64,000 bases of DNA from Crocinitomicaceae bacterium (GTDB lineage: Bacteria; Bacteroidota; Bacteroidia; Flavobacteriales_D; Crocinitomicaceae): positions 1 to 64,000 of the forward strand of contig JAQWHI010000006.1 in NCBI GenBank assembly GCA_029249445.1. Direction: 5' to 3'. Position numbers and translations under genes: made by a program. The notes under the pieces were generated by a model that saw only the letters and a list, made by a program, of their open reading frames with translations, was not told the origin of the DNA and searched no databases. Positions 51,831 through 57,491 of the stretch are shown here, in pieces (position 1 is the first letter of the stretch; every line of letters starts with the position of its first letter).

Positions 51831-52763
51831 ATGCTAAAGCTAATATTCTGTTGTGTATTTTGTTGTTTTACCTCATATTCTGGAGCCCAGGATCACAATA
51901 AAGAGGCATCGATCGAAATAGACTCTTTTTTCCAACCTAGTGAGAACTTCAATAAAAAAAGAGGTGTTTACACTTCAGTTGGAGTGGCATCAGCTTGGAC
52001 TGGAAGTATGATTGGATTGCACCAAGTTTGGTATAAGCAAGTTGAAAAAAGTTCATGGAATACCTTCGATGACTCGAAGAGCTGGTTGCAGATGGACAAG
52101 GCTGGTCATTTTTATACATCTTACAAACTAAACGCTTTAACAACAGATTTATACAGATGGTCTGGTATGCAAACAAAATATGCAACCTGGCTAGGAATTA
52201 CCGTAAGTATTGGATTTCAAACTACATTGGAGTTTTTTGATGCACATACCCAAGATTGGGGTTGGTCATGGACGGATTTTAGCACGAACATTTTCGGTGC
52301 TTCAAGTTACGCAGCACAAATACATTTCTGGAATGAGGAACGATTCATTCCAAAATTCTCATACTCTCCAACTCCATTCGCTGAAATAAGACCGAGTGTT
52401 TTGGGACGCACCTTCTCAGAACGCTTATTGAAAGATTACAATGGCCAAACCTATTGGCTCAGTTTTAGTCCAGGATCCTTTTTTAAAAATAAGAGAATAC
52501 CAGAATGGGCATGTGTTTCCATAGGTTACAGTGCCCACGAAAAACTAGTTGGGTCAGCATCCTATTTTACGGACCCAGAAACAGGACAAGACTATTTTGA
52601 GCAACGAGAAATATTAATCTCATTAGATATTGATTTCAGTAAGATTTCAATAAAACGACCATGGATAAGAACCTTTTTACAACAATTAAACCACTTAAAA
52701 GTTCCATTTCCTGCGCTTCTGTTTCGCAATGGAAACGTACTATTAAAACCCCTCTATTTTTAA
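51831..52763 (+). CDS. DUF2279 family exported protein
   Basis: 310 residues with a signal peptide (FCCVFCCFTSYSGA, then QD). WLQMDKAGHFYTSYKLNALTTDLYRWSG and TLEFFDAHTQDWGWSWTDFSTNIFG match DUF2279, a YfiM-related family of putative envelope proteins of unknown function. The remainder (260-310) is beta-rich. It is one of the few plus-strand genes, transcribed divergently from the LOG-PASTA unit. Confidence 0.85.
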   Translation: MLKLIFCCVFCCFTSYSGAQDHNKEASIEIDSFFQPSENFNKKRGVYTSVGVASAWTGSMIGLHQVWYKQVEKSSWNTFDDSKSWLQMDKAGHFYTSYKLNALTTDLYRWSGMQTKYATWLGITVSIGFQTTLEFFDAHTQDWGWSWTDFSTNIFGASSYAAQIHFWNEERFIPKFSYSPTPFAEIRPSVLGRTFSERLLKDYNGQTYWLSFSPGSFFKNKRIPEWACVSIGYSAHEKLVGSASYFTDPETGQDYFEQREILISLDIDFSKISIKRPWIRTFLQQLNHLKVPFPALLFRNGNVLLKPLYF

Positions 52764-52766
52764 TTG

Positions 52767-54284
52767 CTAAAATTCGGCACGATAATTAAAAGTCACGATA
52801 TTGCCCTCTGAAGCATTTGGAGTCATCCCGAAAAGTGTTCGATCAATCTTCCCTGATCCCACTATAACATGATTGCCTTCTGCTTTAATTCGCTGAAGCG
52901 TTACAATAAGCTCTTTTGTAATTCCAAGCATAGTAAAATTACCGGTAACTTCGAATAAATTACTATCCACCTCGTTAAAACCTACCGCCTCATATTTCAT
53001 GTTAGGAAATTGATCTACTCTAAAGTAGTCGTCTCCGCGAAGCGATGCGTCTCTCATACTAACAAAGGTGGTAAACTCACTCATTGGAAGTATAATTTCT
53101 AAACTGGATTTCTCCATATTTTCATCAATTGATATCGAACCCTTAATTTTTTTGAACGCACCTTTGGTCTGCCCTTGATTGCCCAAAAAGAATTGAACCG
53201 ATGACGACTTACTAATTAATGAATGCCTTCCTTTCAAATCATTCAATGACAATCGATTGGAGCGAACTGAATTTGAATCATCCAGATTGACTGTATCAAT
53301 AATTTTATTTTGACGCTCAAACATGAGTTGTTCCTCATTTACAAGAAAATCAGGAATTACCAGAACTCCACCAAGCAAAATCATAAAAATACTTGCCGTA
53401 ACAAAACCACGGCCAACTATTGCATTCGCCAGAGACATACCAACAAAAATCGCAATGGCAGCATCTATTCCTCCCAGCTTAAAATACAATGTTCCTAGCC
53501 ATAAAATAAAGAATGAAAGACCTAAAAATAGCAGATATACAAGTCCAATTGTTGTGTAATTTCGCTTTTTGGAATTCCACAATTTTTGAATTAGAAATAC
53601 ACCAAACAAACCTATAAAGAGTCCTGAGAGGACATCTCCATCAGTCAAGCTGACTACCTCATTAGGTGCGCTATGAAGCAAAGCTGGAAGCACGGAAAGT
53701 ATTGCAATTGAAACGAAAAAATTACTCGCCTTATCATCGCGGTAATACGAGGCGGAAACAAAAGCAATAGCAACGATATACAACCCAAGGAGAGATGAGG
53801 CAATTGTTGCTAAAAGAATTCCAACTCCAAGCAAAAGAATTAAAATTGAAGAAATAGTATTCTCTATTCCCACTCCTAAAAACAATCTTTCAAACAACTT
53901 GTATTTCAAGACTGCGATCTCAAATGCAAGACATGTAATAAACATCGCACCAACTAAAAAGACATTGACAAGCATATATTGTCCATCTCGCAGAACAATG
54001 GATTGGTTCTGAAATATAACGGTAAAAACCGCAAAGGAAACCATGGGAACAATAAACCGAACCGCTGGCTTTCGCAACATTGAGAGACGAGATAGCACAA
54101 AGTTTGCTGCACATATTCCAATTAAGGCAAACACAACAGAGCCAGAACCTTCATCAAGCGAAGAGAGCAAAATGAGACCAATTGAAGAGGCAATTAAAAG
54201 ATGAAAAAAATCAAGAAATCGATTAACATTGAAATACTGCATCATCAATCCTAATATTCCCAAGACAACTGTTGTAAGTATCAT
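52767..54284 (-). CDS. Multi-pass membrane protein fused to a YceI (lipocalin-like) domain
   Basis: About 505 residues. Residues 1-325 are about ten hydrophobic helices (e.g. ISSILILLLGVGILLATIASSLLGLYIVAIAFV). Residues 335-505 match the YceI fold: VQFFLGNQGQTKGAFKKIKGSI, LPMSEFTTFVSMRDASLRGDDYF, FPNMKYEAVGF, GNFTMLGITKELIVTLQRI and, at the end, KIDRTLFGMTPNASEGN. YceI proteins bind isoprenoid lipids in a barrel and are normally soluble and exported; a long N-terminal membrane domain is unusual. The preferred start ATG 54284 has GGAGG five bases upstream; another in-frame ATG lies at 54296. A TATATTTG box and a palindrome precede it. Function unknown; quinone or polyprenyl handling is a guess. 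Confidence 0.82.
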   Translation of the reverse strand: MILTTVVLGILGLMMQYFNVNRFLDFFHLLIASSIGLILLSSLDEGSGSVVFALIGICAANFVLSRLSMLRKPAVRFIVPMVSFAVFTVIFQNQSIVLRDGQYMLVNVFLVGAMFITCLAFEIAVLKYKLFERLFLGVGIENTISSILILLLGVGILLATIASSLLGLYIVAIAFVSASYYRDDKASNFFVSIAILSVLPALLHSAPNEVVSLTDGDVLSGLFIGLFGVFLIQKLWNSKKRNYTTIGLVYLLFLGLSFFILWLGTLYFKLGGIDAAIAIFVGMSLANAIVGRGFVTASIFMILLGGVLVIPDFLVNEEQLMFERQNKIIDTVNLDDSNSVRSNRLSLNDLKGRHSLISKSSSVQFFLGNQGQTKGAFKKIKGSISIDENMEKSSLEIILPMSEFTTFVSMRDASLRGDDYFRVDQFPNMKYEAVGFNEVDSNLFEVTGNFTMLGITKELIVTLQRIKAEGNHVIVGSGKIDRTLFGMTPNASEGNIVTFNYRAEF

Positions 54285-54312
54285 TACGACCTCCATAAAA
54301 TTTATATTTATA

Positions 54313-54343
54313 CAAATATATAAATTAATTTACCGTGGTAAAT
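54313..54343 (-). promoter_or_regulatory. Promoter box with overlapping palindrome upstream of the YceI fusion gene
   Basis: Minus strand TATATTTG (54313-54320), a consensus -7 box, and seven bases upstream of it the palindrome ATTTACC GT GGTAAAT (54328-54343), where the -33 element would sit. No TTG is seen at the usual spacing, so an activator or repressor site is plausible. Confidence 0.45.
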
Positions 54344-54381
54344 AAATAAAACAAACTGAACGTTAAATAATTTAAAACCAT

Positions 54382-55126
54382 TCAAACAAGGAGCACATTT
54401 TTTAAATTGAGTCCGGACAACTTGTGCAAATATGGAGCTTTGAGATTTTTCTCTAAAATCATTAGGTGCTCCATTCGGTGACAATCAGTAGCTACAAAAT
54501 CAACAAGTTTTTCATCAACAAGCAATTCGGCTTGCTTTTTAATCTCCGGACCATAATGCCCAAATAATGAGTTAATGTTAATCTGAATATCAATCCCCTT
54601 CTCCCTCCAATCTGCTGCTTTATCCATCTGATTAAATAAATACATATCGTTCAAAATGAGCTAAAACAGGCTTATACCCTTGCGACAAAAGCTCAAAAAA
54701 GAGATGATTGATTTGATCTGGCTCAGCATGCATTGAAAATTCAAACAAGAGTTGTTTGTCACCGAATGTTAACAATTCCTCTTTTTTTTCAAGCCGCTCC
54801 AATAAAGTTTCATCAAAATAATATTCAGCTGCTGCATCAATTTGGATTTCAAGATTCAATTCTTTGGCCGTTGATCTGACATCTTCCAACCCCCTTAAAA
54901 TCATTTGAGGTGTATTCCTATAATAGTCACTCATGACATGTGGCGTAGTAATTACCTTTTGGTAGCCTAACGATTGAAATTTGACAAGCATTGCGATTGT
55001 TTGATCCATCGACTTCGATCCATCGTCTATTCCTGGGATCAAATGGCTGTGCATATCTACGCCAAAGATAGAGAGGTCAAAATCTGCAAGTTCTGGTTTT
55101 TTATTTCCAAAAATCTTCCCAAACAT
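54382..55126 (-). pseudogene. CpsB/YwqE-like PHP-type tyrosine phosphatase, broken by a frameshift
   Basis: The first frame (164 residues from ATG 55126) has the PHP metal ligands H26 and H28 (DMHSHLIPGIDDG), TPHVM (H63), E101 and H133, and LAHFER (H157). It ends at a premature TAA at 54632. The rest continues in another frame from about 54650 to 54382: MYLFNQMDKAADW, GIDIQININSLFGHYG and the last ligands in VATDCHR. Both parts align to one CpsB-type protein of about 250 residues. Reading CGATATGTAT as a former CGATATATGTAT would restore the frame, so loss of two bases (AT) is the simplest event. Such enzymes dephosphorylate the Wzc-type kinase that regulates polysaccharide export. It is the last gene of cluster B, directly abutting rfbB. 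A sequencing error is possible. Confidence 0.85.
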
Positions 55127-56185
55127 TTATTTCGCCCCATACATTTTGTCGTAATACGCTTTGTATTCACCACTAGTTACTTGATCAATCCATTCTGAAT
55201 TTTGAAGGTACCAGTCGACTGTTTTCTCCAATCCCTCTTCAAACTTCAAGGATGGTTTCCATCCCAATTCACGCTCCAATTTAGAAGCATCGATCGCATA
55301 ACGCAAATCATGACCAGCGCGATCTTGAACATAAGTAATTAGCCGCTCACTAGATCCTACCTCACGACCTAGCTTGATATCCATGATCTTACATAGGTAT
55401 TTCACCAATTCAATATTTGTCCACTCGTTTAGTCCTCCAACATTATAAGAATCACCGATGCATCCCTTGTGGAAAATTTCATCAATTGCACTTGCGTGAT
55501 CTTCAACCCAGAGCCAATCCCGAATATTCTCACCTTTTCCATAAATTGGAAGTGGTTTCTGATTGACGATATTATTGATCATCAACGGTATTAATTTCTC
55601 TGGAAACTGATGACTTCCATAATTGTTGGAACAATTTGAGATTTTTATAGGTAAACCATACGTGTGATAAAATGCTCGAACGAAATAATCAGAAGAAGCT
55701 TTCGATGCGCTGTAAGGACTTCTCGGATCATACGAAGTGGTTTCTTCGAACAAACCTTCAGTCCCGAGAGAACCATATACCTCATCTGTTGAAACATGAT
55801 GAAAAACATGGTCTTTTTCTCCTCCCCACTTGTCTTTTGCACATTGCAAAAGATTCACAGTCCCAACAACATTCGTCATTACAAATTCCATTGGCCCCTC
55901 GATTGATCGGTCGACATGAGATTCAGCAGCAAGATGGATGACATCCGTTACATCGTAATCTCCAAAAATAGAACGAATTCGTTCCGCATCACAAATATCT
56001 TCTTTTAAAAAAAAATAGCGCTCTGAACCTTCTAGATCGATCAAATTGCTCAAGTTTCCTGCATAAGTCAACTTATCCAAATTGATGATTCGATAGTCTT
56101 GGTATTTATTGACGAACAGTCGAACGAGATGAGAGCCAATAAATCCTGCTCCACCGGTGATCAATATTGTTTTTTCCCATTCCAT
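55127..56185 (-). CDS. rfbB: dTDP-glucose 4,6-dehydratase
   Basis: Second step of dTDP-L-rhamnose synthesis. From ATG 56185 (352 codons): Rossmann motif LITGGAGFIGSHLVR, HLAAESHVDRSIEGP, and the catalytic YSASK (SPYSASKASSDYF). NNYGSHQFPEKLIP is also typical. The frame is open further to 56257, but ATG 56185 lies one base after the upstream stop and gives the usual N-terminus. Works with rfbA and rfbC; rfbD is not in the window. Confidence 0.96.
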   Translation of the reverse strand: MEWEKTILITGGAGFIGSHLVRLFVNKYQDYRIINLDKLTYAGNLSNLIDLEGSERYFFLKEDICDAERIRSIFGDYDVTDVIHLAAESHVDRSIEGPMEFVMTNVVGTVNLLQCAKDKWGGEKDHVFHHVSTDEVYGSLGTEGLFEETTSYDPRSPYSASKASSDYFVRAFYHTYGLPIKISNCSNNYGSHQFPEKLIPLMINNIVNQKPLPIYGKGENIRDWLWVEDHASAIDEIFHKGCIGDSYNVGGLNEWTNIELVKYLCKIMDIKLGREVGSSERLITYVQDRAGHDLRYAIDASKLERELGWKPSLKFEEGLEKTVDWYLQNSEWIDQVTSGEYKAYYDKMYGAK

Positions 56186-56186
56186 A

Positions 56187-57491
56187 TTAAAGACTCCAAT
56201 ATTCCATGGTGTGAATTTTTCCCTTGAAGATTCCTTTAACATCAACAAAAACTCCACTGTCGTCCTTCATGAACTTCTTAAAGTCTTGTTCTACCAGCTT
56301 TTTATATTCCTCATGGTTCACAGCAACAATGACAGCATCGTAGTCATTTGTCGTATCTGTCGCCAAAGCCACTCCATATTCGTGCTCCATTTCGTCGGAC
56401 GACGCATGCGGGTCAATGACATCAACACTTACCTGAAAAGATTTTAATTCCCGAATAATATCAATGACCTTCGAGTTTCGAATATCTGTAACGTCTTCCT
56501 TAAATGTTGCCCCCATCACAAGCACTTTGGCATCTTGAATTGTTTTTCCCTTTGCCAATATTTTTTTAACAGTAGTTTTACCGATGTAGAACCCCATCGA
56601 ATCGTTCACATAACGCCCACTGTTAATTACTCTTGAATGGTATCCGGCTTGTTTCGCTTTATGAATTAAATAGTACGGATCAACACCGATGCAGTGACCA
56701 CCGACAAGACCTGGCGAAAAATTCAGGAAATTCCACTTAGTACCCGCTGCCTCTAAGACATCAAACGTATTGATATCTAACTTATCAAAGATAATGGACA
56801 GTTCATTCACTAATGCAATATTCAGGTCGCGCTGTGTATTCTCGATAATTTTTGCAGCTTCAGCAACTTGGATTGATGGCGCTCTATGCACTCCTGCATC
56901 TACAACTAGTTCGTAAGTCTTTGCAATTTCTTCCAACGAAGTATCACAACAACCAGCAACTACTTTTACAACATTTTGTAGTGTATGCTTTTTATCCCCT
57001 GGATTAATTCGCTCTGGGGAATAGCCAATCATAAAGTCATCTCGAAACGTTAATCCAGACTCTTTTTCTAAAACTGGAACACAATCCTCTTCAGTACATC
57101 CAGGGTAAACTGTAGACTCAAAAACAACATAGTCACCTTTCTTCAATACTTTACCAACAGTTGATGATGCCCCAAGAAGAGGAGTTAAATTTGGGAGATT
57201 TGCGTCGTCAATTGGGGTAGGTACTGCGACGACAAAAAACCTTACCTCCTTTAATTCGTCGAGACGGGAAGTAAACTGAATATCACATCCTTCAAAATCC
57301 TCTTTTCTCAGCTCATTACTTGGATCAATGTTATTTTTCATCAATTCAACTCTCTCCTGGTTGATATCAAAACCTACAACCTTGATCTTTTTTGCAAATT
57401 CTAATGCAATTGGTAAGCCCACGTAGCCTAGGCCGATTACGGCAAGCGAAACATCACCATTTAAGAGTTCCTTATAAATTGATTTGTTCAT
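56187..57491 (-). CDS. UDP-N-acetylhexosamine C6-dehydrogenase (WbpA/TviB/WbpO-like)
   Basis: NAD-dependent oxidation of UDP-GlcNAc or UDP-GalNAc to the uronic acid. 434 residues: AVIGLGYVGLPIALEFAKK (Rossmann, 17-35), VAVPTPIDDANLP, ESTVYPGCTEE, and catalytic Cys C267 in GGHCIGVDPYYL. These motifs set it apart from the UDP-glucose dehydrogenase at 60083. With the WbpB, WbpD and WbpE homologues next to it, a WbpA function is most likely. It overlaps the WbpB-like gene by 20 bases. Confidence 0.93.
   Translation of the reverse strand: MNKSIYKELLNGDVSLAVIGLGYVGLPIALEFAKKIKVVGFDINQERVELMKNNIDPSNELRKEDFEGCDIQFTSRLDELKEVRFFVVAVPTPIDDANLPNLTPLLGASSTVGKVLKKGDYVVFESTVYPGCTEEDCVPVLEKESGLTFRDDFMIGYSPERINPGDKKHTLQNVVKVVAGCCDTSLEEIAKTYELVVDAGVHRAPSIQVAEAAKIIENTQRDLNIALVNELSIIFDKLDINTFDVLEAAGTKWNFLNFSPGLVGGHCIGVDPYYLIHKAKQAGYHSRVINSGRYVNDSMGFYIGKTTVKKILAKGKTIQDAKVLVMGATFKEDVTDIRNSKVIDIIRELKSFQVSVDVIDPHASSDEMEHEYGVALATDTTNDYDAVIVAVNHEEYKKLVEQDFKKFMKDDSGVFVDVKGIFKGKIHTMEYWSL

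Follow-up and report, generated by a model that had tools for sequence, protein, structure and literature searches.

The window under study, a 64,000-nucleotide stretch from a Crocinitomicaceae genome, carries an intact single open reading frame of 509 amino acids on the minus strand (52767-54296); position 54284, at which the initial annotation began the gene, is an in-frame internal ATG of the same frame. The protein is composed of an N-terminal membrane part (aa 1-319) and a C-terminal YceI barrel (aa 356-509). Pfam assigns the latter to YceI (PF04264; aa 363-502, E 7e-23; score 82 bits, cut-off 23.7), and no credible Pfam or NCBIfam family match was found for aa 1-335. The intact frame and the PF04264 match bear out the initial proposal that a YceI barrel is joined here to a large membrane domain. 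The features of the locus, in which M-PPase denotes membrane pyrophosphatase and H+-PPase its proton-pumping form, are as follows.

52767-54296, minus strand: whole gene, 509 aa, encoding a membrane scaffold very probably derived from M-PPase and a YceI lipocalin (Pfam, homologues, AlphaFold2, structural alignment)
53340-54296, minus strand: membrane domain, aa 1-319, 12 predicted helices corresponding to M-PPase helices 5-16 (AlphaFold2, VIA-align, hhalign)
53748-53867, minus strand: helices 10 and 11, aa 144-183; G171 is invariant (alignments, hhalign)
53574-53639, minus strand: helix 13, aa 220-241, GLFIGLF, the part closest to H+-PPases (the TM-only profile matches H+-PPases of class genomes here)
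53415-53468, minus strand: helix 15, aa 277-294, following a conserved GG at 275-276, with D/E278, A279 and G286 (23-row alignment)
53232-53339, minus strand: putative periplasmic linker, aa 320-355 (low model confidence, pLDDT below 50 at 334-346)
52770-53231, minus strand: YceI lipocalin barrel, aa 356-509 (PF04264, Foldseek to 1wub/5ixh/1y0g, VIA-align)
51831-52763, plus strand: DUF2279 (YfiM-like) lipoprotein family, convergent neighbour (Pfam/NCBIfam, gene-order comparison)
54382-55126, minus strand: CpsB/CapC phosphatase, frameshifted, upstream neighbour (open reading frames, gene-order comparison)
55127-56257, minus strand: RmlB-like sugar dehydratase, upstream neighbour (gene-order comparison, Pfam)

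The gene was initially regarded as standing alone, with its own promoter and a palindrome. Instead, it ends a conserved same-strand polysaccharide cluster: a ugd-like gene, rmlB, cpsB and the fusion run on one strand, DUF2279 lies on the opposite one, and LOG, PASTA and T9SS-type genes come after it (the names ugd-like, PASTA and T9SS-type are our presumptive assignments). The same order is found in most sufficiently long loci of the genus, with L007/L135 as an exception, and DUF2279, cpsB and rmlB also flank the fusion in G369. In more distant genera, DUF2279 is the persisting neighbour in several loci (L174-L177, L181), on varying strands. This setting is suggestive of a tie to envelope polysaccharide synthesis, which uses undecaprenyl carriers. 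A separate promoter is not supported: a sigma-70-like match of 9 of 12 positions occurs at 54342-54315, and the region contains 10 such matches against 7.0 (sd 2.6) in shuffles. The inverted repeats taken for a palindrome do exist at 54296-54347, but they consist of nearly pure A+T. In the adjacent cpsB/capC, an apparent frameshift, which seems to be a sequencing error or a recent lesion, leaves two overlapping frames (54632-55126 and 54382-54654); in three related loci (L005, L006, L125) both parts lie in one frame.

The membrane helices, unrecognised in the initial annotation, are assigned to the M-PPase fold by structure prediction and to M-PPase ancestry by profile comparison. The AlphaFold2 model of the fusion, built from 23 aligned rows, has a pLDDT of 83.9 and a pTM of 0.74. 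The contig-end fragments L024 and L026 were left out of alignment A1. VIA-align superimposes 309 of the 319 residues of the membrane part on residues 171-722 of 6qxa_D (Z 20.8, rmsd 3.9), and 311 residues on residues 223-757 of 6afu_A (Z 20.6), ranges that we take to be helices 5 to 16 of 16, with the numbering fitted to the ranges. The level stated by the tool for helical bundles is Z 13-14. Among the best 50 structural matches listed, M-PPases are the only ones to the whole membrane part, and by Foldseek they rank straight after the YceI proteins (E 3e-3, probability 1.00). The barrel aligns with 5ixh_B over 153 residues (Z 19.0). The bundle prediction called for by the initial annotation thus yields an M-PPase fold in the main model, but its replication in the divergent member L028 is weak: that second model is poor (pLDDT 69) and reaches Z 8.8 over 226 aligned residues, under the level that counts for helical proteins, even if M-PPases are again the sole listed structures that match the entire membrane part.

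Profile comparison with hhalign agrees with the fold. The match of the membrane part strengthens from P 0.0073 (22 rows against 30 H+-PPases of related genomes) to P 7.8e-5 against 56 H+-PPases, and to P 1.7e-6 with 33 rows against the 56 (probability 89.9, score 56.5). In the controls, the highest score of 60 block shuffles is 23.4 against the real 56.5 for 33 rows; for 22 rows, the real 44.3 compares with at most 24.1 in 100 block shuffles and with 17.0 and 20.3 for reversed profiles. The membrane part shares the M-PPase sequence register at helices 10-13 and 15, and helix 15 pairs with the GAEALG.. helix of H+-PPase. When 395 class genomes were searched with a TM-only profile (alignment A2), the own genome and G369, which belongs to its family, were the sole ones with full-length matches; apart from these two copies, 26 of the 28 further loci fetched are H+-PPases, matched at about query positions 193-240 in most listed rows. 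Weak matches (E ~0.003-0.03) of positions ~4-99 in frames of ~1,020-1,060 aa were also obtained in several genomes, and are taken for chance.

It might be argued that the membrane part comes from another family and resembles M-PPase as one helical bundle resembles another. Several searches are in keeping with such a coincidence: the Pfam search gave no PF03030 match to the fusion protein, the TM-only profile found no M-PPase chain in the PDB sequence set (best match SID1, E 0.016) and, within the own genome at E up to 10, matched itself only and not the genuine H+-PPase encoded there, and the replicate model is weak as described above. However, the Z value of the main model lies well over the helical-bundle level across 309 residues, the profile evidence is independent and controlled, and H+-PPase operons are indicated by the YceI half as well, as described below. 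Such a coincidence is therefore barely credible to us, and a novel transporter fold was likewise rejected on the structural match. A cytochrome b561-like membrane part was also rejected, since no column of aa 1-319 has His in 80% of the rows and no b561 Pfam match was found; the initial annotation had already set the domain apart from b561. The fusion is thus very probably an M-PPase-derived, catalytically dead scaffold joined to YceI, with fold, topology and common descent being predicted from models and profiles.

The domain had been counted as ten helices, and the AlphaFold2 models and the charge pattern now indicate twelve. In a 12-span topology, Lys plus Arg are more frequent inside than outside in 22 of 22 rows (mean 13.2 against 3.0). 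If the long helix at 144-183 is read as one span, this contrast is nearly gone (9.0 against 7.2), and in the L028 model that helix is broken in two. If helices 10 and 11 are two spans, with the positive charges inside, the C-terminus and the YceI barrel are predicted to be periplasmic, like known YceI proteins.

Little of the pump machinery can be recognised in the membrane part. Helices 1-4 and the cytoplasmic loops of M-PPase are missing, including the active-site loop after helices 10/11, and DNVGD, DNAGG, NAGGAWDNAKK and DPFKDT are absent from all 43 fusion frames checked. The M-PPase active site needs conserved Asp, Asn and Lys, and its ion gate is formed by E6.53/57, D6.50, S6.54, D/N16.46 and K16.50 (both from part of PMC10897367). 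In the 23-row alignment, none of these three residues is conserved in the core helices; across aa 1-319, columns with at least 80% acidic or basic residues are limited to 278 (D/E) and 76, 131 and 137 (K/R), and none reaches 80% Asn/Gln or His. Charge is nearly absent from the middles of helices 5, 8, 11, 12, 15 and 16. In helix 6, 15 of the 23 rows have one or two charged residues, in no conserved column, and neither helix 6 nor helix 16, where the ion gate would be, contains a column with same-sign charges in 80% of the rows. To judge from its sequence, neither pyrophosphate hydrolysis nor ion pumping by the known M-PPase mechanism is possible for the fusion.

Conservation of the membrane part is modest and lies mainly in glycines, as expected of helix packing (G225 and G229 of helix 13 are examples in the 23-row alignment). 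The barrel is better conserved, with 2.70 bits per column compared with ~1.9-2.5 in the membrane part. The fusion frames are intact, and purifying selection is seen in those pairs that permit an estimate. Saturation at synonymous sites affects most of the 11 pairs compared, so that dN/dS was computable for two pairs in the membrane part (0.17 and 0.33) and for four in the barrel. The best conserved helices of the family are 11, 13 and 15. The M-PPase dimer interface is formed by helices 10, 13 and 15 (PMC10897367, in part), and a retained homodimer is plausible because 13 and 15 are conserved, although 10 is not.

The initial annotation suggested a search for the same fusion elsewhere in Bacteroidota, and fusions with full-length homology were found in 22 of 33 other genomes of the genus (two of them split across two contigs) and in two of three other genera sampled in the family. 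Among the rows listed for 23 genomes of other families, matches were confined to the YceI half, save that those of L029 and L031 extend into the linker. Using the TM-only profile, the membrane domain was detected in 44 of 100 family genomes, representing 12 of 24 genera; 20 of the 44 matches were fetched as loci and all are YceI fusions, the remaining 24 being judged by frame length. This recurrence goes far beyond chance. Of the 100 genomes, 15 have both the membrane domain and an H+-PPase, 29 the membrane domain alone, 22 an H+-PPase alone and 34 neither; for the 83 genomes with at least 90% completeness and at most 5% contamination, the respective numbers are 13, 23, 20 and 27. The two are not associated (Fisher p 0.65-0.68). 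Since no PF03030 match was found in 29 of the 44 genomes that have the membrane domain (23 of 36 in the high-quality set), the dead domain occurs without a detected H+-PPase. The own genome encodes one genuine H+-PPase.

Several families of the class have a genuine H+-PPase with a C-terminal YceI domain, or with YceI as the next gene downstream. One protein (L132) scores 869 bits for PF03030 and 144 bits for PF04264. Further fusions of this type are found at L044, L035, L036, L039, L043, L045, L048, L060, L071, L074, L075, L076, L080, L082, L085, L093 and L124, and YceI is the gene next to H+-PPase at L126-L130. Among 79 H+-PPase loci, which are best matches and thus a non-random sample, 16 are fused to YceI, three have it as the next gene and 60 have neither, where L049 is scored as neither with an overlapping YceI frame and the few downstream bases at some loci could hide a next-gene YceI. 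In a tree of 82 YceI domains (duplicate entries for one gene, the partial YceI frame of L091, and L002, missed by the YceI profile, were left out), 26 fusion barrels group with three next-gene barrels (L029, L030, L038) with a support of 99/94; the fusion barrels by themselves are weakly supported (68/70). Two of the five next-gene rows (L041 and L049) fall in another YceI group.

The genuine H+-PPases sampled in the family itself have no YceI, and most of them carry a Cys-rich C-terminal tail of ~9-23 Cys (L058, L040, L042, L047, L050, L052-L057, L059, L061, L062, L141, L142), which is possibly metal-binding. Such tails also occur outside the family (L072, L086). The H+-PPases of L084 and L087 have a different C-terminal extension, whose end we take to resemble an OmpA-like peptidoglycan-binding domain.

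Because the membrane part matches M-PPase and the barrel groups with those next to H+-PPases, both halves point to an H+-PPase/YceI unit with a hollowed pump. The simplest history is that such a unit was duplicated or fused and that its pump then lost catalysis, an order of events which we infer from the comparison of present-day genes. The initial annotation considered that the membrane part might turn out to be a known YceI partner family already described as a fusion. The first half of this stands, as the domain appears to descend from a YceI partner, the H+-PPase; for the second half, no published fusion was found, and the literature searched, which is thin on subscription journals, describes neither the dead fusion protein nor the H+-PPase/YceI pairing.

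Comparison with known systems delineates what has been kept and what has been lost. Relative to the M-PPases of PF03030 with structures from Vigna radiata, Thermotoga maritima and Pyrobaculum, the predicted fold over helices 5-16 is alike and the C-terminus is periplasmic in both, as predicted for the fusion; the fusion, however, has 12 helices instead of 15-17, lacks helices 1-4, the cytoplasmic loops, the active-site and ion-gate motifs and a PF03030 score, and has gained YceI. The H+-PPases with a C-terminal or next-gene YceI (e.g. L044, L093, L126, L128) share the pair of modules and their order, and three next-gene YceI proteins are the nearest kin of its barrel, whereas their pyrophosphatase half is complete and keeps the catalytic motifs. 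The barrel also shares fold and Pfam family with free YceI lipocalins (E. coli YceI, TT1927b, BcnA), which, unlike the fusion, are secreted via a signal peptide and have no membrane domain attached. Most YceI structures contain isoprenoids or ubiquinone-8, and LcoA-BcnA is a pair of cytochrome b561 and YceI lipocalin that is fused in many Alphaproteobacteria, the fused proteins being read as membrane-tethered lipocalins in lipid peroxidation defence (PMC9113575, in part). In LcoA-BcnA, and by prediction in our fusion, an N-terminal multi-helix membrane protein tethers a periplasmic YceI barrel, but the former uses a b561 redox protein, and the fusion has no conserved His and a different fold.

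We take the protein to be very probably a pseudo-pump, descended from an M-PPase by loss of helices 1-4, of the cytoplasmic loops for catalysis and of the ion gate. By analogy with LcoA-BcnA, the 12 helices that are left would form a scaffold, which probably dimerises with itself via helices 10, 13 and 15 of the former interface. This scaffold would keep a lipocalin that binds isoprenoids or quinones on the outer side of the inner membrane. The barrel may then take up lipid from the outer leaflet of the inner membrane, or return it there, in a manner comparable to LcoA-BcnA tethering. We infer the dimer, the ligand and the function from such likeness, and assign a probability of roughly 0.55 to M-PPase-derived identity and tethering function taken together.

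Other functions can be envisaged for the same protein. The hollowed core might itself be a lipid channel, in which an uncharged central funnel would accept the tail of an isoprenoid or quinone and hand it on to the YceI barrel, the ligand thereby moving across or out of the membrane; this makes definite the transport idea of the initial annotation. Near absence of charge in the former ion-pathway helices, intact frames under purifying selection in the two pairs computable for the membrane part, and the isoprenoid lipids bound by known YceI members (PMC9113575, in part) would all fit such a channel, but conservation of the membrane part is modest and mostly of glycines of the packing type, and a conserved polar gate was not found in the 23 rows, leaving it unlikely. 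The opposite view, that the membrane part is a decaying relic serving as a mere anchor while the barrel alone matters, would account for the higher conservation of the barrel. One helix suffices for a plain anchor, however, and here the charge pattern of twelve helices is kept in 22 of 22 rows, the domain is present in 12 of 24 sampled genera and dN/dS is well under 1 where computable; we consider a relic quite unlikely. A regulatory pseudo-subunit pairing with the genuine H+-PPase of the cell would agree with the presence of such an enzyme in the own genome and with the fact that two of the three dimer-interface helices (interface after PMC10897367, in part) are among the best conserved, but the 29 genomes in which the membrane domain was detected and a pump was not, and the lack of association between the two, make a subunit of a live H+-PPase very improbable.

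As ion pumps, M-PPases occur widely, and we know of no earlier pseudoenzyme of this family; none was found described in the literature searched, thin as it is on subscription journals. A doubtful but far-reaching version of the lipid-handling idea is that the M-PPase barrel, having lost its charges and the loops for catalysis, forms a membrane conduit that loads isoprenoid or quinone into the attached periplasmic lipocalin or unloads it. If this were true, a bacterial family would have made a lipid-handling machine out of a primary ion pump, and the ordinary H+-PPase/YceI pairs would represent its working ancestor, linking pyrophosphate energy to isoprenoid handling. For the M-PPase-derived scaffold as such, a conserved family that keeps the M-PPase fold and drops catalysis would imply that this scaffold can serve another purpose. 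The recurrent pairing of YceI with genuine H+-PPase, unreported in the literature searched, offers a lead on the role of YceI lipocalins, and on what use a pump driven by pyrophosphate would have for a lipid-binding partner.
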